Positions 2,150 to 15,318 of a stretch of DNA of 64,000 bases are shown in pieces (positions within the stretch are counted from its first letter, which is position 1; every line of letters starts with the position of its first letter). Source of the DNA: Gemmatimonadota bacterium. Its GTDB lineage: Bacteria; Gemmatimonadota; Gemmatimonadetes; Gemmatimonadales; Gemmatimonadaceae. A program made the position numbers and the translations under genes. The notes under the pieces are model-generated. The model was not told the DNA's origin. It did no database searches and saw only the letters and a list, made by a program, of their open reading frames with translations. The stretch is from the NCBI GenBank assembly GCA_027307165.1, contig DAHUXM010000034.1, forward strand, positions 62,001 to 126,000, in the 5' to 3' direction.

Positions 2150-3304
2150 GTGCGCAGCTGCGTTTACGCGGCTGCGCTGCTTGTATTGCTCGCAGGCGTC
2201 AGCGCGCCGGAGCCGCTCGCCGCACAACTGACCCCCCGGCCCGCCAGGAACGGCGCTTTGGTCGAGGGAGGAATTGCATCAATAAAAATTGATGGTTACG
2301 CACTGGCGACACTCGCGAATCTCGCCTCGTCCCTGTGGGGCGAGACCGGCCGGTTTTCCGGCGCTGGTACCGGCAACCTCGCGCGGTTCGAGACGGGTAG
2401 CACGTCGGGCTACGGCGAGTTGCACGGATCGTTCGCGCTGTCGTCGGACCGCCGCAACATCTCGGTGATCCGGGCCGATGCAGGCGGCGGCGCCTATCGC
2501 GGCGAGGCGTCGTCCCAATACGGGGAGGCTTCGTTGACGCTCGGAAGATCCTCTGCGACAGGAGCGGCGGCCGGATGGCTCGACGTGGGCGTCGGACGGG
2601 TGGATGCGACCTCGACACGGAACACCTCGCACGCACGGATCGCTGGATCCATACGATCGGGGTGGGCGATGGTCGGCGCCGACGCGGGCGTGCTCGCGAC
2701 CGGGTCGACCAGGTACAGCGAGGCGGCGATTCATGCTCAGCTCGCACCATTTGGAAGCGATGCGTCCGGCATTACCAGAGTTGTGATCGGCGGGGATGGC
2801 GGTATTCGCTCCTCGGCGGAGTCGAAAGGTCGGCGTGCGTGGGCGATGGCTGTGGCCACGGTGCGGCTCGTCGGACCGGTGTCGATGGTTGGATACGCAG
2901 GTGCGCAGCCCCCCGATCCAACGCGAGGCACGTTGGGTGCTGCTTTCACTTCCATTGGATTGCGGGTCGCGCTGGGACCGTCGGGCGCTACTCGCGCGTC
3001 CCCGGTGATACCGGCCGTGTCGGAGGCGACGTCGGTGAGCGCCGTTGCTGACGATGGCCGGCGCATGATCAGCGTCGTACTCGCAAATGCCCGGACCGTG
3101 GACATCATGGGCGACTTCACGTCATGGCTCCCGGTCCCGATGACGCGTTCCACGAGCGGGAAGTGGCAGCTTCGCATTCCTCTGGACGAGGGAAGCCATC
3201 GTCTGGAGGTGCGGGCCGATTCAGGCAGTTGGGTTCCAGCACCGGGGCTTCCAGTGGCGGCCGATGAGTTCGGCGGCAGCGTGGGAATCCTGGTGGTGCA
3301 GTAA
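2150..3304 (+). CDS. Exported, probably outer-membrane protein ending in CBM48-like domain
   Basis: This 384-residue protein starts at GTG 2150. The signal peptide runs to about residue 25 (LLVLLAGVSAPEPLAAQ). Residues about 40-300 are rich in Gly, Ser and alternating hydrophobic/polar strands (for example GYGELHGSFALSSDRRN), as in transmembrane beta barrels. Residues about 305-384 are a second CBM48-like domain: VDIMGDFTSWLPVPM, then W-Q-L-R-I-P-L-D-E-G-S-H-R-L-E-V-R. It lies 47 bp after the previous gene and probably belongs to the sigma-factor operon. Two proteins of this operon therefore carry the same kind of domain outside the inner membrane. Confidence 0.75.
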   Translation: MRSCVYAAALLVLLAGVSAPEPLAAQLTPRPARNGALVEGGIASIKIDGYALATLANLASSLWGETGRFSGAGTGNLARFETGSTSGYGELHGSFALSSDRRNISVIRADAGGGAYRGEASSQYGEASLTLGRSSATGAAAGWLDVGVGRVDATSTRNTSHARIAGSIRSGWAMVGADAGVLATGSTRYSEAAIHAQLAPFGSDASGITRVVIGGDGGIRSSAESKGRRAWAMAVATVRLVGPVSMVGYAGAQPPDPTRGTLGAAFTSIGLRVALGPSGATRASPVIPAVSEATSVSAVADDGRRMISVVLANARTVDIMGDFTSWLPVPMTRSTSGKWQLRIPLDEGSHRLEVRADSGSWVPAPGLPVAADEFGGSVGILVVQ

Positions 3305-6847: not shown

Positions 6848-8053
6848 GTGGAAATGACAAGCAGCGACGCACTTCCAACGCTCGGCTCGGAAGAAATTCT
6901 GCGCTATTCGCGCCATCTCATCCTGGACGAGATCGGCGTGGAGGGGCAGCGCCGTATCAAGAACGCTCGCGTTCTGCTGATCGGCGCCGGCGGTCTGGGC
7001 TCACCAAGTGCGTTGTATCTTGCCGCGGCGGGCGTCGGCACACTCGGCATGGTCGACTTCGACGTCGTGGACGCGTCCAATCTTCATCGCCAGATTCTTC
7101 ACGGTACGTCCGACGTCGGACGCTCCAAGCTCGACTCCGCGCGCGATCGTATTCGCGACGTGAATCCGCATGTACATGTAGAGCCGTTCGACACGCGATT
7201 CGACGCGCGGAACGCGCTGGAGATTTTACGCGACTTCGACATCGTCGTCGATGGAACTGACAACTTTGCGACGCGCTACCTGACCAATGACGCTGCGGTA
7301 TTGCTCGGCAAGCCGAACGCCTTCGGGTGCATCTTTCGCTTCGAGGGCCAGGCCTCGGTCTTCGGCGCGCAGAACGGACCATGCTACCGTTGCCTCTTTC
7401 GTGATCCGCCGCCCGCCGGTCTCATTCCAAATTGCGCCGAAGCGGGAGTGCTCGGCGTGCTGCCCGGCCTGGTCGGAACCATCCAGGCAGTGGAGACGCT
7501 CAAGCTGATTCTCGGCGTCGGTGATTCTCTGGTGGGACGTCTGCTCCTGATCGAAACGCTCGGCATGACATTTCGCTCGATTACCGTCCGCAGCGACCCC
7601 GCGTGTCCCGCCTGCGGCGAAGCGGCAGCCGGCGGCGCGACGATTCGGAGCCTCGACGACCGTGCATTCGACTACGATGACATCTCGTGCGCCACGCCAA
7701 CCACAAGTGCCGATTCCAGTAATGGAGCAACGATGATTCGAGAGATATCCGCGACCGAGCTCGCTGCGCGAATCACGCGTGGCGACGAATTCGACCTCGT
7801 CGATGTCAGAGAACCAGCCGAATGGGCGATAGCGCATATCGAAGGAGCACGGCTGGTACCGCTGGCAACCATCGGCGCTGCGAGCCGCGACTGGGATCGC
7901 TCGCGCGAAGTCGTGCTGTACTGCAAGGCGGGCGTCCGCAGCATGCGCGCCGCCGAGGAGCTGGTACGGCAGGGATTCACACACCTGACCAATGTTGCGG
8001 GCGGAATCGTAAGCTGGACCAACGACGTCGATCCGTCGTTACCGCGCTACTAG
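6848..8053 (+). CDS. MoeB/ThiF-type adenylyltransferase fused to rhodanese domain
   Basis: About 401 residues from GTG 6848 (GGGA seven bases upstream); ATG 6854 is possible. Residues 1-255 are the E1-like domain with the nucleotide loop GAGGLGSPSALYLAAAGVG, the catalytic-site segment DASNLHRQILHG, and zinc cysteines in PCYRCLF and DPACPACGE. Residues about 300-400 are a rhodanese domain with active-site Cys in YCKAGVRSMRAA. This is the MoeZ/Uba4 architecture: it adenylates the C-terminal Gly-Gly of ThiS, MoaD or similar carriers and passes sulfur from the rhodanese cysteine. Which carrier it serves cannot be told from the window. Confidence 0.93.
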   Translation: MEMTSSDALPTLGSEEILRYSRHLILDEIGVEGQRRIKNARVLLIGAGGLGSPSALYLAAAGVGTLGMVDFDVVDASNLHRQILHGTSDVGRSKLDSARDRIRDVNPHVHVEPFDTRFDARNALEILRDFDIVVDGTDNFATRYLTNDAAVLLGKPNAFGCIFRFEGQASVFGAQNGPCYRCLFRDPPPAGLIPNCAEAGVLGVLPGLVGTIQAVETLKLILGVGDSLVGRLLLIETLGMTFRSITVRSDPACPACGEAAAGGATIRSLDDRAFDYDDISCATPTTSADSSNGATMIREISATELAARITRGDEFDLVDVREPAEWAIAHIEGARLVPLATIGAASRDWDRSREVVLYCKAGVRSMRAAEELVRQGFTHLTNVAGGIVSWTNDVDPSLPRY

Positions 8054-8165: not shown

Positions 8166-9224
8166 TTGACCTACGGCTTCGTTGGAGTCGTGATCGGCCT
8201 CTCGCAGATCGGTTTGGCCACGCTGGCCGGCGCGCTGGACTATGCGCGGCGATCGCGGGCGAGCATGGCCGGTACCGGAGCTCACGAGGGCGCTGGCAAT
8301 GCACGCCGGCTGCTCTCGGGCGAATTCGGTGCGCCTGAAGTCCTCGTCGCGCTTCGAAGTGCATCGACCGCCGATACCGCGCAGGCTCTGGTCTGGCTCG
8401 GACTGGAGCGCGTGCATCCCGCCGAGCGTGACGCGCTTGTGGAGATGCTCCGCCAGGAGCCGTGGGTGCGTCAGGCGATCGACGGCGCTCGCTCGCTGAT
8501 GTGGTGGAAACGACTGGCTGCGGCACGCACGCTCGCGCTTCTCGCGAGCGCGCAGGATCGTGCTACGATCCTGCAGTTGCTGTCGGATTTCCACCCTGCA
8601 GTACAGAGCGCAGCGACTACGTGCCTGAATCGCTACGCCGATGAGGAGCTGCTCACTGCCGTCATCGACGGTCTCTCGTCGGCATCTTCGGCCGTGCGTG
8701 AATATCAACTCAGCGTACTGCGGGGCTACCAGTCGTTGGCCGGCCCGATGCTGCTCGCGCGGATCCGCGCAGACGCGCCGCCGCACAAACTGTATGCGTA
8801 TATCCACGCCGCGGCGGTACTGGACGACGCGGAATGCATGGCGCGCATCGCGACTCTTTCGACGCATCCGCATCCGGAAGTGCGCGTTGCCGTCGCGCGC
8901 GTGCTGCGTCGCAGATCGGGAGACACGGTTCAGGTGAAGTTGCTCTCGATGCTCCGCGACTCGGATTGGCGCGTGCGCGCGCAGGCGGCGCGTGCACTGT
9001 CAGGGTCGACCGATGAGCGCACGGTGCAGGAGCTGTCTCGCGCGCTGACCGACAGCAACTGGTGGGTCCGATTCCGTGCCGGGCTTTCACTGGCTTCGAT
9101 GGGCCCTCGCGGGAAGCAGGCGCTTTCAGAAGCGCTCAACAATGCCGACAGGTATGCGCGCGACATGGCGATGCTGGTGATCGGACTGTCGGAAGCCAGC
9201 GTCGCGGAGTTGTCAGCGGGATGA
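8166..9224 (+). CDS. HEAT-repeat protein with N-terminal membrane anchor
   Basis: A 352-residue protein read from TTG 8166; GTG 8190 is the next choice. Residues about 3-25 form one membrane helix (FVGVVIGLSQIGLATLAGAL). The rest is a ladder of about 30-residue helical pairs of HEAT/PBS-lyase type, such as DWRVRAQAARALSGSTDERT and NWWVRFRAGLSLASMGPRGK, spaced as expected. HEAT arrays act as protein-protein scaffolds. Its stop overlaps the start of the next gene (ATGA), so it very likely partners the glycosyltransferase-like membrane protein. Confidence 0.85.
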   Translation: MTYGFVGVVIGLSQIGLATLAGALDYARRSRASMAGTGAHEGAGNARRLLSGEFGAPEVLVALRSASTADTAQALVWLGLERVHPAERDALVEMLRQEPWVRQAIDGARSLMWWKRLAAARTLALLASAQDRATILQLLSDFHPAVQSAATTCLNRYADEELLTAVIDGLSSASSAVREYQLSVLRGYQSLAGPMLLARIRADAPPHKLYAYIHAAAVLDDAECMARIATLSTHPHPEVRVAVARVLRRRSGDTVQVKLLSMLRDSDWRVRAQAARALSGSTDERTVQELSRALTDSNWWVRFRAGLSLASMGPRGKQALSEALNNADRYARDMAMLVIGLSEASVAELSAG

Positions 9225-10615
9225 CGATAGCCGGCATTCTGTTCGCGGTGATGATGACAATCATGATTTTCTTTCTCGTCATCAACTCGTTTCATTCGAT
9301 TCTGCTGATGTGCGCGGTTCCCGAATTGTGGTCGCACTGGCAGCTGGCCGACGACGAATATTTCCATGCACTGGTCGGGACCGACGCGCTCCCTCCGATT
9401 TCCGTTATAGCGTCGCTGCAACATTCGCCGCTGCCGCCGGTCGAAATCGCGGCGATGCTGCTCGGGCTCGACTATCCGCGTTTCGAGGTAGTTCTCGTCG
9501 TCGACGGCGCGGCGGAGAATTCGCTCGGCAATCTCGTTACCGCGCTTGAACTCTACGAGGTTCCTCCGGCCTTCACCATCAACGTGCGGACTCGGCCGGT
9601 GCGCGCCTACTACCGGTCGCGCACGTATCCGCGATTGCTCTGCATCGACATGCCGGACACATCGATCGGTGACGCCTTGAACGCTGCGACCAATGCCGCG
9701 CGATATCCGCATGCGGTCGCAGCCGGTCCGAACGTGGTCTTCGAGCGTGACGCGTTGCTGAGACTGTCGCGCCCGTTTCTGCTGGATCGGTCCGTGGCGT
9801 GCGCGAGCGGCATCCTCCGGCCGGTGAGTGGCGCGGAGCTGCGGGACGGGAAAATCACACTCAGACGTGGCCGCGGCTGGGTGGACGGGTGCCAGACTAT
9901 TGAATTTCTGCGCAATTTCGTGTATCTGCGATTGGGCTGGAATCGCGTCGCAAGCAACATCGTGGTGCCAAGCAATCCGGTGATGTTCAAGCGCGAGCAC
10001 ATCTTCGGAATGGGTGGCTTCGACGCGACTGTGGAGGTGCCGGCGGTCGACATCGCCATGCGGATGGCGCGATATCTGACCGACAACGGCATCAACGCCA
10101 TGATGCCGGTCGTCCCCGACCCGGTTGCCTGGTTCGTCGTTTCGGGCGATCTGACGACCATCGGCCGAACGCGCAGAGCCTGGATGCGGGGCTTGCGCCG
10201 CGCACTCGTCCACAACTCGGTAATGCTGCTCAACCCGGAATACGGGATGTTCGGGCTCGTTGCAATGCCGTATTTCTGGCTCGGAGTGGTTATTGCTCCG
10301 CTTCTGGAGCTGCTGGGCTATTTTGGCCTCGTCGCAGGGCTCGCAACAGGCGTGCTCGATTCGTCATTTGCCTGGGCCTACTTGGCGTCCGTGGTCGGAT
10401 ACGGCATACTCCTATCTATATGGAGCGTGGTGTTCCAGGTCACGTTCCTTCCCGGTAACGACGGACGAAGCAACGCCGTGAGGCTGCTCGCGTACGCCGT
10501 GATCGAATCGCTGGGATACCGTCAGATTCTCCTGCTTTTTCGTGCCGCTGCGTATTTTCTCGACCGTCAACCCAAACATTCAAATGGACAACCATCGCCT
10601 TCAGGCGTTACATGA
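9221..10615 (+). CDS. Glycosyltransferase-2-like membrane protein without catalytic motifs
   Basis: A 464-residue protein with an N-terminal membrane helix (4-33), a central domain (about 58-325) collinear with processive GT2 synthases of the PgaC/HmsR type, and three or four C-terminal membrane helices (about 343-445). The fold landmarks are kept: PVRAYYRS, GDALNAATNA, RRGRGWVDG, the RLGWNR helix and PDPVAWF. The catalytic sites are not. The nucleotide-sugar site reads VVDGAAEN (93-100). The DxD position reads AGPN (168-171). The general-base region reads VPAVDIAMR instead of G-E-D. The QxxRW site reads TRRAWMRG (317-324). It looks like a pseudo-enzyme or a strongly divergent synthase. It is coupled to the HEAT gene upstream and overlaps transaldolase downstream by 32 bp. 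Confidence 0.8.
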   Translation: MTIAGILFAVMMTIMIFFLVINSFHSILLMCAVPELWSHWQLADDEYFHALVGTDALPPISVIASLQHSPLPPVEIAAMLLGLDYPRFEVVLVVDGAAENSLGNLVTALELYEVPPAFTINVRTRPVRAYYRSRTYPRLLCIDMPDTSIGDALNAATNAARYPHAVAAGPNVVFERDALLRLSRPFLLDRSVACASGILRPVSGAELRDGKITLRRGRGWVDGCQTIEFLRNFVYLRLGWNRVASNIVVPSNPVMFKREHIFGMGGFDATVEVPAVDIAMRMARYLTDNGINAMMPVVPDPVAWFVVSGDLTTIGRTRRAWMRGLRRALVHNSVMLLNPEYGMFGLVAMPYFWLGVVIAPLLELLGYFGLVAGLATGVLDSSFAWAYLASVVGYGILLSIWSVVFQVTFLPGNDGRSNAVRLLAYAVIESLGYRQILLLFRAAAYFLDRQPKHSNGQPSPSGVT

Positions 10616-11696
10616 CGCGGGCCAGTCGATCTGGCTCGATTACATAGATCGTACCATGCTGCACAACGGTGACCTCGAGCGCCGCCTCACGGACGACGTG
10701 CTCACCGGCATGACCTCGAATCCGACCATCTTTCAGAAGGCGCTCGCCGAAGGCACTGCGTACGACGATCAGCTTCGCGCAGCGCCGGCGTCGCTCGACG
10801 TCAAGCAGCTGTTCGAGCTGGTCGAGACGCAGGACGTTCGCGACGCGTGCGACGTGTTCGCGGATGTCTACCACCGCACCAACGGTGACGACGGCTACGT
10901 CTCGATCGAAGTCTCCGCCAATCTGGCGAACGATGCGGCAGCAACGATCGAGGAAGCGCACCGGCTCTGGGCAACGGTCAACCGTCCCAATCTTCTCGTC
11001 AAGGTCCCTGGAACGGTGGAAGGTGCCAAGGCGGTGAGGCAACTCATCACTGATGGCGTCAATGTGAACATCACGCTGCTTTTCGCGGTAAAGGCGCACG
11101 AGCGTGTGATCGACGCATACATCGATGGACTCGAAGCGCGCGTGTCGAAGGGATTGCCGATCGACAAAATCGCATCCGTGGCAAGTTTCTTCGTCAGTCG
11201 CGTGGATACGGAGGTCGACAAACGACTCGAGGTCATCGGCGGCAGCGCGCGCCAGTACGAGGGGAAGGCCGCCATCGCCAACGCCAAGATGGCCTATCAG
11301 CTCTTCGTGACGAAGTTCGGCGGAGCACGTTGGAACGCGCTCGAGGCAAAAGGTGCGCGCGTCCAGCGTCCGCTGTGGGCGAGCACCAGTACCAAGAATC
11401 CCGCATACCGTGACGTGCTCTACGTCGAGAACCTGATCGGCCCCGACACGGTGAACACCATGCCGCCAAAGACGATCGAGGATTTCCGCGACCACGGAAT
11501 AGTTGCACGCACGGTAGATGCCGACATGGACCGGGCGCGCGGGGAGCTCGCAGCGATAGCTCAGGCAGGTGTCAGCCTCGACGACGTGACGGATACGCTC
11601 TTGCGCGAAGGCATCGCGAGCTTCGAAAAATCGTTCGAGACTATGACCGCCGGCATCAAGGCCAAGGTCGCGCAGCTCCACTCCAGCAAGATCTGA
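10584..11696 (+). CDS. tal: Transaldolase
   Basis: From ATG 10584 the protein has 370 residues, the longer form of transaldolase found in actinobacteria and similar groups. Signature segments are DDVLTGMTSNPTIFQKAL near the N-terminus and the Schiff-base lysine in RPNLLVKVPGTVEGAKAV. It moves a dihydroxyacetone unit between sugar phosphates in the non-oxidative pentose phosphate pathway. It sits directly ahead of pyruvate kinase (1-nt overlap) in a central-carbon cluster. The start lies inside the end of the membrane protein gene. Confidence 0.95.
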   Translation: MDNHRLQALHDAGQSIWLDYIDRTMLHNGDLERRLTDDVLTGMTSNPTIFQKALAEGTAYDDQLRAAPASLDVKQLFELVETQDVRDACDVFADVYHRTNGDDGYVSIEVSANLANDAAATIEEAHRLWATVNRPNLLVKVPGTVEGAKAVRQLITDGVNVNITLLFAVKAHERVIDAYIDGLEARVSKGLPIDKIASVASFFVSRVDTEVDKRLEVIGGSARQYEGKAAIANAKMAYQLFVTKFGGARWNALEAKGARVQRPLWASTSTKNPAYRDVLYVENLIGPDTVNTMPPKTIEDFRDHGIVARTVDADMDRARGELAAIAQAGVSLDDVTDTLLREGIASFEKSFETMTAGIKAKVAQLHSSKI

Positions 11697-13105
11697 TGCC
11701 GTATATTCGCCGCACCAAAATAGTCTGCACGCTCGGTCCCTCGACTGCAACGCACGACACGATCATGGCGATCGCGGAAGCAGGCATGAACGTCGCGCGC
11801 CTGAATTTCTCACACGGTACCCACGCCGACCACGCCGAGCGCATCCGCACGGTCCGCCAGATCGCCGACGAGCTGGATCAGCCAATCGCGATACTCGGCG
11901 ATCTCCAGGGGCCGCGCATCCGTATCGGCGAACTGGCGTTGAGCCTCCCCCTCAAGCCGGGCGACGATGTAACACTGGTGCACGAAGGCGAGGAGAGGGG
12001 CGGCGAAATACCGGTCACGTATACAGAGCTCGCCAACGACGTGAAGGTCGGTGACCGCATTCTCGTCGACGATGGACTGATCGAGCTCGTAGCGCTCGAC
12101 GTACGGGCGCCGCGCGTACACGCGCGTGTGATTCACGGAGGTGTCCTCCGGAGTCACAAGGGATTGAATCTGCCCGGTGTGCAGGTGTCCGCTCCATCGC
12201 TCACTGAGAAGGACATCGCAGACGTCAAATTCGCGATCGAGCAGGAGCTGGACTATCTCGCCCTCAGCTTCGTGCGTCGCGCCGAGGACATAACGTCACT
12301 GCGTGCGCTGCTGCCGCCGTGGATGAACATAGTCGCCAAGATCGAGAAGGACGCCGCACTGGCCAACATCGAATCCATCATCCGTGCTTCGGATGGCGTC
12401 ATGGTCGCGCGCGGCGATCTGGGCGTGGAGCTGCCGTTTGAAGAAGTGCCCGTCGCACAGAAGATGATCATCGCACTCTCCAATCAGATCGGCCGTCCCG
12501 TGATTACGGCGACGCAGATGCTGGAGTCGATGGTGACGAATCCTCGACCGACGCGTGCCGAGGCGAGCGATGTGGCGAATGCAATTCTCGATGGTACCGA
12601 CGCCGTGATGCTCTCCGCGGAAACCGCCGCGGGAAGTTATCCGCGACTGGCCGTCGAGGCGATGAGTCGCATCATCGCGGAGATCGAGCAACATCCGCCG
12701 TCACATCACTTTCGCGATTCACGCAATCGGCAGATCGGAATCGTGACGACGGAAGTCGCGATCGCGGCTGCGACTGTTGCCGCCGTCAGAATGCTCGGCG
12801 CGCCACTCGTCGTCGTGATCACCAAGAGCGGCTTTTCGGCCCGCATCGTCTCGTCGCATCGGCCGCCCGTTCCCGTCCTCGCGCTCACCGACAACACGCG
12901 CACTCGCAATCAGCTGGCGTTGTTGTGGGGCGTGATTCCGCACGTCGCCGAATCGCGCCCGACCTACACCGAGATGGCCGAAGTCGGCAAGCTGGTAGTG
13001 CGCGATCTGAACCTTGCTGCTGCGGGAGACCGCGTGATCTTCACTGCGGGACATCCATTCGGAATTCCAGGCACGACCAATCTGCTCAAAGTGGAGGTCG
13101 TGTGA
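11696..13105 (+). CDS. pyk: Pyruvate kinase
   Basis: A 469-residue enzyme that begins with PYIRRTKIVCTLGPST and carries the family hallmarks MNVARLNFSHGTH, the metal/substrate lysine in NIVAKIEKDAAL, VARGDLGVELP and RPVITATQMLESMV. It converts phosphoenolpyruvate and ADP to pyruvate and ATP. The length includes the A, B and C domains, with no extra C-terminal PEP-utiliser domain. The ATG overlaps the transaldolase stop by one base, so the two are co-translated. Confidence 0.97.
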   Translation: MPYIRRTKIVCTLGPSTATHDTIMAIAEAGMNVARLNFSHGTHADHAERIRTVRQIADELDQPIAILGDLQGPRIRIGELALSLPLKPGDDVTLVHEGEERGGEIPVTYTELANDVKVGDRILVDDGLIELVALDVRAPRVHARVIHGGVLRSHKGLNLPGVQVSAPSLTEKDIADVKFAIEQELDYLALSFVRRAEDITSLRALLPPWMNIVAKIEKDAALANIESIIRASDGVMVARGDLGVELPFEEVPVAQKMIIALSNQIGRPVITATQMLESMVTNPRPTRAEASDVANAILDGTDAVMLSAETAAGSYPRLAVEAMSRIIAEIEQHPPSHHFRDSRNRQIGIVTTEVAIAAATVAAVRMLGAPLVVVITKSGFSARIVSSHRPPVPVLALTDNTRTRNQLALLWGVIPHVAESRPTYTEMAEVGKLVVRDLNLAAAGDRVIFTAGHPFGIPGTTNLLKVEVV

Positions 13106-13159
13106 TTCAACACCGGAGCTCGAGCGGAGCGCCGCGCAAAGCGCTTCCGTGAGGTCGTC

Positions 13160-13936
13160 GTGAAGCTCACGTTTCTGGGCACCGGCACGAGCTTCGGCGT
13201 GCCCCAGATCGGCTGCGGCTGCGCCGTGTGCAGGTCACCCGATCCGCGCGACAAGCGCGGCAGGGTAGGGGCGCTGGTCGAGACAAACGGCGGAACACGG
13301 CTCCTGATCGACACGCCGCCGGAACTGCGACTCCAGCTGATCGCAAACGGTATCGATCGCGTGGATGCGGTTCTGTTCACGCACGAGCACGCCGATCACA
13401 CGCACGGGTTGGACGACATTCGTGCGATCACGAATCGCCGGGCAGCGCCGCTGACGATGTATGGACCGCCCACGACGCTCGACAGCCTGCGCCAGCGCTT
13501 CCCGTACATCTTCGATGACAGCATGCGCGTGTTGCCCGGCACGAGCAAGCCGGAAGGGCGGGCCGAAGCCCTCCTTCCGGGTGTACCAATATCGATTGGC
13601 GACGCCATTGTCACCCCGGTCGCTGTGCCACATGGCCTTGTCACGGTTTTTGCATACCGTATTGGCGATCTGGCATACGTGACCGACGCCAAGAGCATCC
13701 CACCCGAAGCGGCCGCAGTACTCCGTGGCGCGAAGGTGCTTGTCATCAACGCGTTGTTCCGAACCGACCATCCGAGCCACCTGAGCCTGCCTGAAGCGAT
13801 CAGCGCGGCAAGGGAGCTGGGCGCCGAGCGCACGTACCTGACTCATCTCACACACGACAACTTTCACGCCGATCTCGAGGCTGAGCTGCCGCGCGACATA
13901 CAACCAGCTTTCGACGGATTGACGGTACGGATATGA
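13160..13936 (+). CDS. Metallo-beta-lactamase-fold hydrolase, PhnP-like
   Basis: A 258-residue protein starting at GTG 13160. It has the binuclear-metal motif HEHADHTHGLDDIR (about 75-88), an N-terminal FLGTGTSFGVPQIGCGC strand-loop with paired Cys, and the later metal ligand histidines in VPHGL, YVTDAK and LTHLTHDN. Cys13/15/18-type residues plus GTGTSFGVP are typical of the PhnP / phosphoribosyl cyclic phosphodiesterase-like subgroup. It probably cleaves a phosphodiester, but the substrate is unknown. It lies between pyk and pgi, and the stop overlaps the pgi start. Confidence 0.85.
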   Translation: MKLTFLGTGTSFGVPQIGCGCAVCRSPDPRDKRGRVGALVETNGGTRLLIDTPPELRLQLIANGIDRVDAVLFTHEHADHTHGLDDIRAITNRRAAPLTMYGPPTTLDSLRQRFPYIFDDSMRVLPGTSKPEGRAEALLPGVPISIGDAIVTPVAVPHGLVTVFAYRIGDLAYVTDAKSIPPEAAAVLRGAKVLVINALFRTDHPSHLSLPEAISAARELGAERTYLTHLTHDNFHADLEAELPRDIQPAFDGLTVRI

Positions 13937-15318
13937 TTTCGATCGACTTTACAAACATGATGGCAAGCGCCGTCGACAACGGTGTGACGGACGAGGAATG
14001 GGAAGAGGCGTACGGCGCATTCGCCACGGTCCACAAGGGAGTCGAGACGCTGCGAAGCGAGGGCGTCGCGGATTTCATGAATCTCCCGCGCAACGCACCG
14101 CTGCTGCAACAGGCAATCGATTTCGCGGGACGTGCTCGCGGACGCTACGACGACGCGATCATACTCGGAATCGGCGGATCTGCGCTCGGTCCGATCGCGC
14201 TCAAGACTGCTCTGTGCCGCTCTGGTTGGAACGAGCTGTCCAGCGACGCGCGATCGGGCCATCCGCGCCTGCACGTGCTCGACAACATCGATCCGGTGAC
14301 CATCACGGCGGTGCTCGACAGACTCGCGCTGGAGCGCACGCTGTTCATCGTCACTTCGAAATCCGGCGGCACTGCGGAAACGATGTCGCAGTTTCTCATC
14401 GCTCACGAGCGCGTGGCGAACGCCGGGCTCAAGATTGCGGATCACTTCGTTTTCGTCACCGATCCCACGACAGGCGCGCTCAGACCGCTCGCCGGTGAGC
14501 TCGGAGTGCCGGCGCTCGACATTCCTCCCGGCGTGGGGGGGCGTTACAGCGTGCTCACTCCGGTGGGAACGCTTCCGGCGGCATTGCTCGGAATTAACGT
14601 GGCCGACCTCCTCGTGGGCGCCGGTGAGATGCTCGACAGGTGCGCGACGACCGACCTGTCGCAGAATCCCGCGGGCATAATCGGCTCGCTCTTCTACATG
14701 AGCGACGTGCGTCATGGACGCGTGGTCGACGTGCTCATGCCCTACGCCGATCCGTTGCGTGATTTCGCCGCGTGGTTCGTTCAGCTGTGGGCGGAGTCAC
14801 TCGGCAAGCATCGCGACGACGGGAAATCGGTTGGAAGCACGCCGCTTCCCGCGCTCGGCGCTACCGATCAGCACAGCCAGGTTCAATCGTTCATGGAAGG
14901 ACCGGCCAACAAGGTGATAGCGTTCATCGCCGTCAAGGATCACGGGAGCGACATCGTCATCCCATCGGCGTTCGAGCACGTCACCGAGCTCGGCTATCTC
15001 GGAGGCCACACGCTTGGCGAGCTGCTCGACATCGAGCAGCGCGCGACGGCTGGTGCCCTGGCAAAGCGCGGTCGGAGCAACCTCACGATCCGGATGGAGA
15101 AGGTCGATGCCCGGGGCGTGGGCGCGCTAATGATGATGTTCGAGCTCGCCACCGCGTATGCCGGCCAGATGTACGGAGTAAACGCATTCAACCAGCCCGG
15201 CGTCGAGCTGGGCAAGCAATTCGCATATGCGCTGCTGGGCAGGCCGGGCGCCGAGGCGGCGAAGGCACAGTGGGACGCTCTCCCCAAGCCAGACCCGCGC
15301 TGGTCGCAGGGAGACTAA
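13933..15318 (+). CDS. pgi: Glucose-6-phosphate isomerase
   Basis: A 461-residue enzyme, close to the short bacterial form of about 450. Double SIS fold: first domain GIGGSALGPIALKTAL, then VTSKSGGTAETMSQFLIAHE that binds the sugar phosphate, and the second half ATDQHSQVQSFMEGPANK with the catalytic Glu/His region. The C-terminal INAFNQPGVELGK equivalent is VNAFNQPGVELGKQ. It interconverts glucose-6-phosphate and fructose-6-phosphate. ATGA overlap with the hydrolase gene and an 8-bp gap to the aldolase gene indicate one operon. Confidence 0.96.
   Translation: MISIDFTNMMASAVDNGVTDEEWEEAYGAFATVHKGVETLRSEGVADFMNLPRNAPLLQQAIDFAGRARGRYDDAIILGIGGSALGPIALKTALCRSGWNELSSDARSGHPRLHVLDNIDPVTITAVLDRLALERTLFIVTSKSGGTAETMSQFLIAHERVANAGLKIADHFVFVTDPTTGALRPLAGELGVPALDIPPGVGGRYSVLTPVGTLPAALLGINVADLLVGAGEMLDRCATTDLSQNPAGIIGSLFYMSDVRHGRVVDVLMPYADPLRDFAAWFVQLWAESLGKHRDDGKSVGSTPLPALGATDQHSQVQSFMEGPANKVIAFIAVKDHGSDIVIPSAFEHVTELGYLGGHTLGELLDIEQRATAGALAKRGRSNLTIRMEKVDARGVGALMMMFELATAYAGQMYGVNAFNQPGVELGKQFAYALLGRPGAEAAKAQWDALPKPDPRWSQGD

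Follow-up and report, generated by a model that had tools for sequence, protein, structure and literature searches.

The window analyzed here, a 64,000-nucleotide stretch of the 3.7-Mb genome (G000) of a Gemmatimonadota bacterium, encodes what is probably a maintained pseudo-synthase: a GT2-like membrane protein that would derive from a regulated operon and serve as a non-catalytic membrane platform for the HEAT-repeat protein encoded next to it. The HEAT-repeat gene (positions 8166 to 9224) has a TTG start, encodes 352 amino acids, matches PF13646 (3.9e-25), and aligns with the homologous HEAT partners at other loci. The GT2-like gene (9221 to 10615) encodes 464 amino acids. Both genes are on the plus strand, as are their motif sites and overlaps and the neighboring genes at 6854 to 8053 and 10584 to 15318. 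They overlap at an ATGA stop/start (9221 to 9224), and the same or a near overlap is found at most homologous loci. The first-pass annotation had described this pair and had concluded from the overlap that the two proteins are made together; the pair and its joint encoding were borne out. The HEAT protein has a single hydrophobic helix at its N terminus, with positive charges after it, and by the positive-inside rule, applied to aligned sequences, its HEAT domain is expected to be cytoplasmic. The 3' end of the GT2-like gene overlaps the transaldolase start (10584 to 10615) in the window species and in G022; this overlap is not present in G298 and G190. Promoter and terminator scans gave no result.

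Active processive GT2 synthases share the signature D, DxD, (T)ED, and QxxRW (PMC6821405), of which the first D and the Trp of QxxRW alone remain in the window protein. In an alignment with intact homologues, SLQHS (residues 65 to 69; 9413 to 9427) replaces PAYNE, and DGAAE (residues 95 to 99; 9503 to 9517) keeps D95-G96 of the DGSxD motif with S97 and D99 lost. Ile149 (9665 to 9667) stands in place of the Lys of GGKAD, with D151 kept. The DxD motif, DAD, has become GPN (residues 169 to 171; 9725 to 9733), the ED of the TED catalytic-base motif has become PA (residues 274 and 275; 10040 to 10045), and QRERW is replaced by TRRAW (residues 317 to 321; 10169 to 10183), losing Q and R and keeping the Trp. 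Read over slightly longer strings, NDGSxD corresponds to VDGAAE, GGKAD to TSIGD, DADT to GPNV, and TEDMD to VPAVD. A C-terminal WGxxxR motif that is conserved in intact homologues is absent at its site (10583 to 10600); a WGTR motif is presumably relevant to this loss. The strings quoted in the first-pass annotation (VVDGAAEN, AGPN, VPAVDIAMR, and TRRAWMRG) are exact. Its claim that every catalytic motif had been lost holds for seven of nine key residues and is slightly overstated, since D95-G96, D151, and W321 are kept; the loss of catalytic residues is near-complete, not total. R132-S133 and D143 are likewise retained. Because D95, D143, D151, and W321 (the Trp of QxxRW is the acceptor-stacking residue [PMC6821405]) remain, residual contact with a nucleotide or sugar is possible.

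A Pfam search with the GT2-like protein matched no family at an E value of ≤1, and its homologues score unmistakably as GT2 in profile searches. Against the PgaC_IcaA model (TIGR03937), the window protein scored 13.5 bits, far below the curated cutoff of 422.3; the intact homologue L053 also falls below this cutoff, at only 120.5 bits. The HEAT-GT2 gene pair is found phylum-wide, with HEAT directly upstream of GT2 at essentially all homologous loci that had enough sequence, and all nine key residues are present in 79 of the 85 aligned sequences, the window copy included. The exceptions are the four copies from the window genus, L084 from genus g6, and L106, which carries a single change; L130 is a second dead g6 copy outside these exceptions. 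All four genomes of the genus carry the gene with the loss, the other three proteins being 98, 69, and 62% identical to that of the window. A scan of named genome contigs returned one relative only, PMEM01000054.1 (Gemmatimonadetes bacterium isolate fen_1247), from the same genus. The first-pass annotation had named, as evidence against its own proposal, a lone decayed copy among intact homologues in the same position. Homologues with intact DxD and QxxRW do occupy the same position, but the window copy does not stand alone and is not decayed, and an isolated decayed copy or an assembly artifact was rejected because the loss is common to four separate genomes. A hidden intact paralogue was rejected as well: none of this family was found in the genus, and the sole other strong GT2 match is a GH18-deacetylase-GT2 protein.

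Among the intact copies, 108 alignment columns are at least 95% conserved. In 38 of these, all four genus members differ from the intact copies; N68, E69, S97, D99, K149, D169, D171, E274, D275, Q317, and the C-terminal W and R are among them. Fifty-two are kept throughout the four genus members, and 36 of the 52 are also kept in both dead g6 copies, which leaves 16 for which only the four genus members agree with the intact type without exception. The replacing residues vary among the four species (G, G, A, and S for D169; T, T, A, and A for Q317), which argues against a new fixed active site at these positions.

The predicted fold agrees with that of a membrane synthase. AlphaFold modeled the window protein with a pLDDT of 84.5 and a pTM of 0.84, placing one membrane helix at the N terminus, followed by a GT-A body, interface helices, and further membrane helices at the C terminus, in a layout identical to that of an intact homologue (pLDDT 90.4; pTM 0.88). 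The best match to a solved structure was PcManGT (Z 28.7). The comparison with BcsA/PgaC-type synthases that had been proposed gave a matching fold, with a VIA Z of 26.9 for the Chlorella virus hyaluronan synthase 8snc (382 residues aligned; rmsd 3.4) and of about 22 to 23 for BcsA. The GT-A fold with membrane helices expected of an active processive GT2 synthase is thus predicted here. The model was built from an alignment of 56 sequences, mostly intact homologues, and is therefore better taken to show that the sequence can accommodate the fold than as proof of it.

Rates of substitution were estimated by Nei-Gojobori counting, uncorrected for codon bias. In the comparison with G022, whose synonymous sites are unsaturated, the GT2-like gene showed 37 synonymous and 12 non-synonymous changes, a dN/dS of 0.108 (Fisher p 1.4e-13); the values for its neighbors were 0.109 (HEAT), 0.054 (tal), and 0.021 (pyk). 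Deeper pairs within the genus gave 0.15 to 0.21, with synonymous sites near saturation. No internal stop was found in the GT2-like gene of any of the four genomes, at a dS above 1.3; in neutral simulations at 0.11 substitutions per site, stops arose in 97% of runs (mean, 2.8). A decaying pseudogene is recognized by premature stops or frameshifts and a dN/dS near 1, and this gene is open in four genomes at 0.11 to 0.21. The ratio of dN in the catalytic region to dN in the membrane helices was 1.34 to 1.97 in this genus, 1.04 in g6, and 0.26 to 0.63 in intact pairs, in ten pairs compared over regions chosen after the motifs were seen. The low dN/dS together with the fast catalytic region indicates that selection keeps the protein and no longer the active site. 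The gene shows two of the traits that mark a pseudoenzyme (pseudo-glycosyltransferase), homology to intact enzyme-type proteins with catalytic residues lost, and maintenance by selection as a protein (dN/dS 0.108; p 1.4e-13). The proposal of a pseudo-enzyme selected for a non-catalytic job is supported by this ratio, the open frame, the predicted fold, and the loss in four genomes.

These data bear directly on whether the gene is a decaying relic, its regulator gone and the synthase becoming a pseudogene, with the frame left open by chance or by the polar effect that stops would have on the glycolytic genes downstream. Decay would account for the joint absence of regulator and catalytic residues and for a GT that evolves faster than in intact relatives, and the dead g6 pair, with a dN/dS of 0.50, suggests that the protein there may be fading. 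However, the youngest pair in the window genus has a ratio as low as that of its HEAT neighbor, the frame is free of stops in four genomes, the structural residues and membrane helices are kept, and avoidance of polarity bars stops, not amino acid changes. For the window genus, the relic reading is largely refuted, and we consider it improbable. Only slightly better placed is the possibility of continued enzymatic function, through an active site that has shifted or a transfer reaction of another kind, such as a metal-independent one. The retained D95-G96, D143, D151, R132-S133, and W321 and 48 fixed genus-specific changes fit such an enzyme, and GT-A families that work without DxD are known (PMC7185993). 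The catalytic-base (TED), metal (DxD), Lys, and Gln positions are nevertheless all lost and filled differently between the species of the genus, and the catalytic region is the fastest-changing part, so that continued catalysis appears unlikely; from the sequence, we infer that the window protein cannot transfer sugar.

A regulatory or assembly subunit of another synthase is a further candidate role, also with a low probability. In humans, CHPF acts in this way for CHSY in chondroitin polymerization and COSMC for T-synthase, each helping to stabilize or assemble its active partner (PMC12748766, PMC7185993). The candidate partner is the other PgaC-like protein of the genome, a 1,176-amino-acid protein with GH18, polysaccharide deacetylase, and GT2 parts (L149:4935-8465, minus strand). 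A similar long GT2 open reading frame is present in relatives with an intact HEAT-GT2 pair and hence is not specific to the genus, and its locus is unlinked to the HEAT-GT2 locus.

The surroundings of the gene pair place it among intact relatives. Downstream lies tal-pyk-metallo-hydrolase (mbl)-pgi (10584 to 15318), and several intact copies of the same family precede the same genes; we therefore regard the window gene as orthologous to them and its sugar-phosphate neighbors as inherited. A functional link to sugar-phosphate metabolism or carbon flux, which had been suggested, was rejected, since this synteny is common to intact copies and missing around others. In intact family members a third gene, upstream of HEAT, encodes an Hpt domain, one or more receiver domains, in some cases with GGDEF, and a final receiver. 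In the window, the HEAT gene is directly upstream of and overlapping the GT2-like gene as in these operons, and the place of the Hpt-REC-REC regulator is occupied, here as in the rest of the genus, by a ThiF/MoeB-like plus rhodanese gene (6854 to 8053). None of the six dead copies has the regulator at its locus, and searches of the four genus genomes and of G252 found no orthologue; the best matches were generic receiver domains. A few distant intact copies also lack it, so that loss of the regulator alone does not equate to loss of catalysis. Elsewhere in the window, two proteins (856 to 1422 and 2150 to 3304) that adjoin an ECF-type sigma factor (267 to 863) have C termini resembling glycogen-binding (CBM48/AMPK-type) domains, by eye only.

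The intact operon, seen at L053, L055, L066, and other loci as Hpt-REC(-GGDEF)-REC, HEAT, and GT2, is uncharacterized and resembles an exopolysaccharide synthase under phosphorelay control. In some relatives the operon also contains a YaiO barrel or a TPR protein that ends in a BcsC domain, which supports an exported polysaccharide as the probable ancestral product. In G064, for example, YaiO (C21:679792-680295) lies just upstream of the regulator, and at L065:3355-7800 (minus strand) a 1,482-amino-acid TPR protein with a BcsC C-terminal domain is directly downstream of an intact HEAT-GT2 pair. A missing exporter as the cause of the loss was rejected; many intact-type genomes also lack YaiO or BcsC matches. 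At five loci of family f2 (L021, L023, L026, L031, and L060), the GT2 open reading frame is about 711 amino acids long. The putative extension beyond the synthase has no Pfam match and appears outer-membrane-barrel-like by eye; if so read, an outer-membrane barrel and an inner-membrane synthase in one chain would be odd.

The catalytic residues were likely lost twice independently, in this genus and in g6. A concatenated tal+pyk+mbl+pgi tree places the dead g6 copy L130 beside the intact L054 (100/99) and rejects a single clade of dead copies (p-AU 0.0044), which implies two losses, and L130 retains the leading Asp of DxD, consistent with g6 having undergone its own, later loss. In contrast, the GT tree unites the dead copies (96% SH-aLRT), although a long-branch warning applies; the HEAT tree, which joins them in 14% of bootstraps, does not decide the matter. 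Also against two origins, the Glu of TED has become Pro in most copies of both dead groups. A single origin, followed by replacement in G212, is possible. Within g6, L132 (G300) is an intact regulator-HEAT-GT2 locus, the other full-length g6 copies being dead; its HEAT sequence groups with genus g8, so that transfer or misbinning is possible. The HEAT partners of the dead g6 copies L084 and L130 lack about 70 amino acids of the N-terminal HEAT region present in other aligned partners.

The sequences demonstrate homology, synteny, loss of motifs in four genomes, absence of the regulator, purifying selection, and a relaxed constraint on the catalytic region. On the reading of a maintained pseudo-synthase, the ancestor would have been a regulated membrane polysaccharide-synthase operon (Hpt-REC-REC regulator, HEAT, and GT2) before tal-pyk-pgi in this family. 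The window genus would have lost the regulator, and its GT2 the donor-sugar and catalytic residues, and purifying selection would have retained the HEAT partner along with the membrane helices and folded GT-A body of the synthase. Intact upkeep beside the HEAT partner despite the lost catalytic residues suggests a non-enzymatic job. Adjacency and shared constraint hint, more weakly, that this job is to provide a non-catalytic platform in the membrane, which anchors the cytoplasmic HEAT protein or is read by it, perhaps with some remaining glycan contact through the acceptor-side Trp. Glycan binding or export would be compatible with that Trp and with the well-kept membrane helices. It is conceivable, if rather doubtful, that the synthase became a non-catalytic membrane module on two occasions, once in each of two genera, with the regulator lost each time and the HEAT protein and dead body recruited, e.g., to sense, gate, or bind a glycan produced elsewhere.

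The window protein resembles processive membrane GT2 synthases (hyaluronan synthase, BcsA, and PgaC/IcaA) in its predicted GT-A fold and membrane helices over nearly the full length and differs in its replaced donor-binding and catalytic residues and in having no Pfam GT2 match. It resembles the regulator-HEAT-GT2 operons of Gemmatimonadota, some other members of which carry YaiO or TPR-BcsC-like exporters, in its orthologous site before tal-pyk-pgi, HEAT partner, and stop/start coupling; unlike them, it is without the regulator, and its GT2 looks inactive. The human COSMC and CHPF are likewise GT-A proteins without DxD and other donor-site residues (PMC7185993, PMC12748766), but they belong to other GT families and have a known active partner, whereas the window genome has no intact paralogue of the family. 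The dead glycosyltransferases documented in the papers cited here are animal proteins, and a limited search of the open-license literature found no bacterial membrane-synthase counterpart; a literature search for HEAT-GT2 operons gave no relevant match. The intact operon type, dead copies, and shared synteny coexist here in one family, so that one can ask of what use a synthase body is once catalysis is gone and what GT2 synthases gain from HEAT proteins. A GT2 annotation at this locus does not necessarily mean that a polymer is made.
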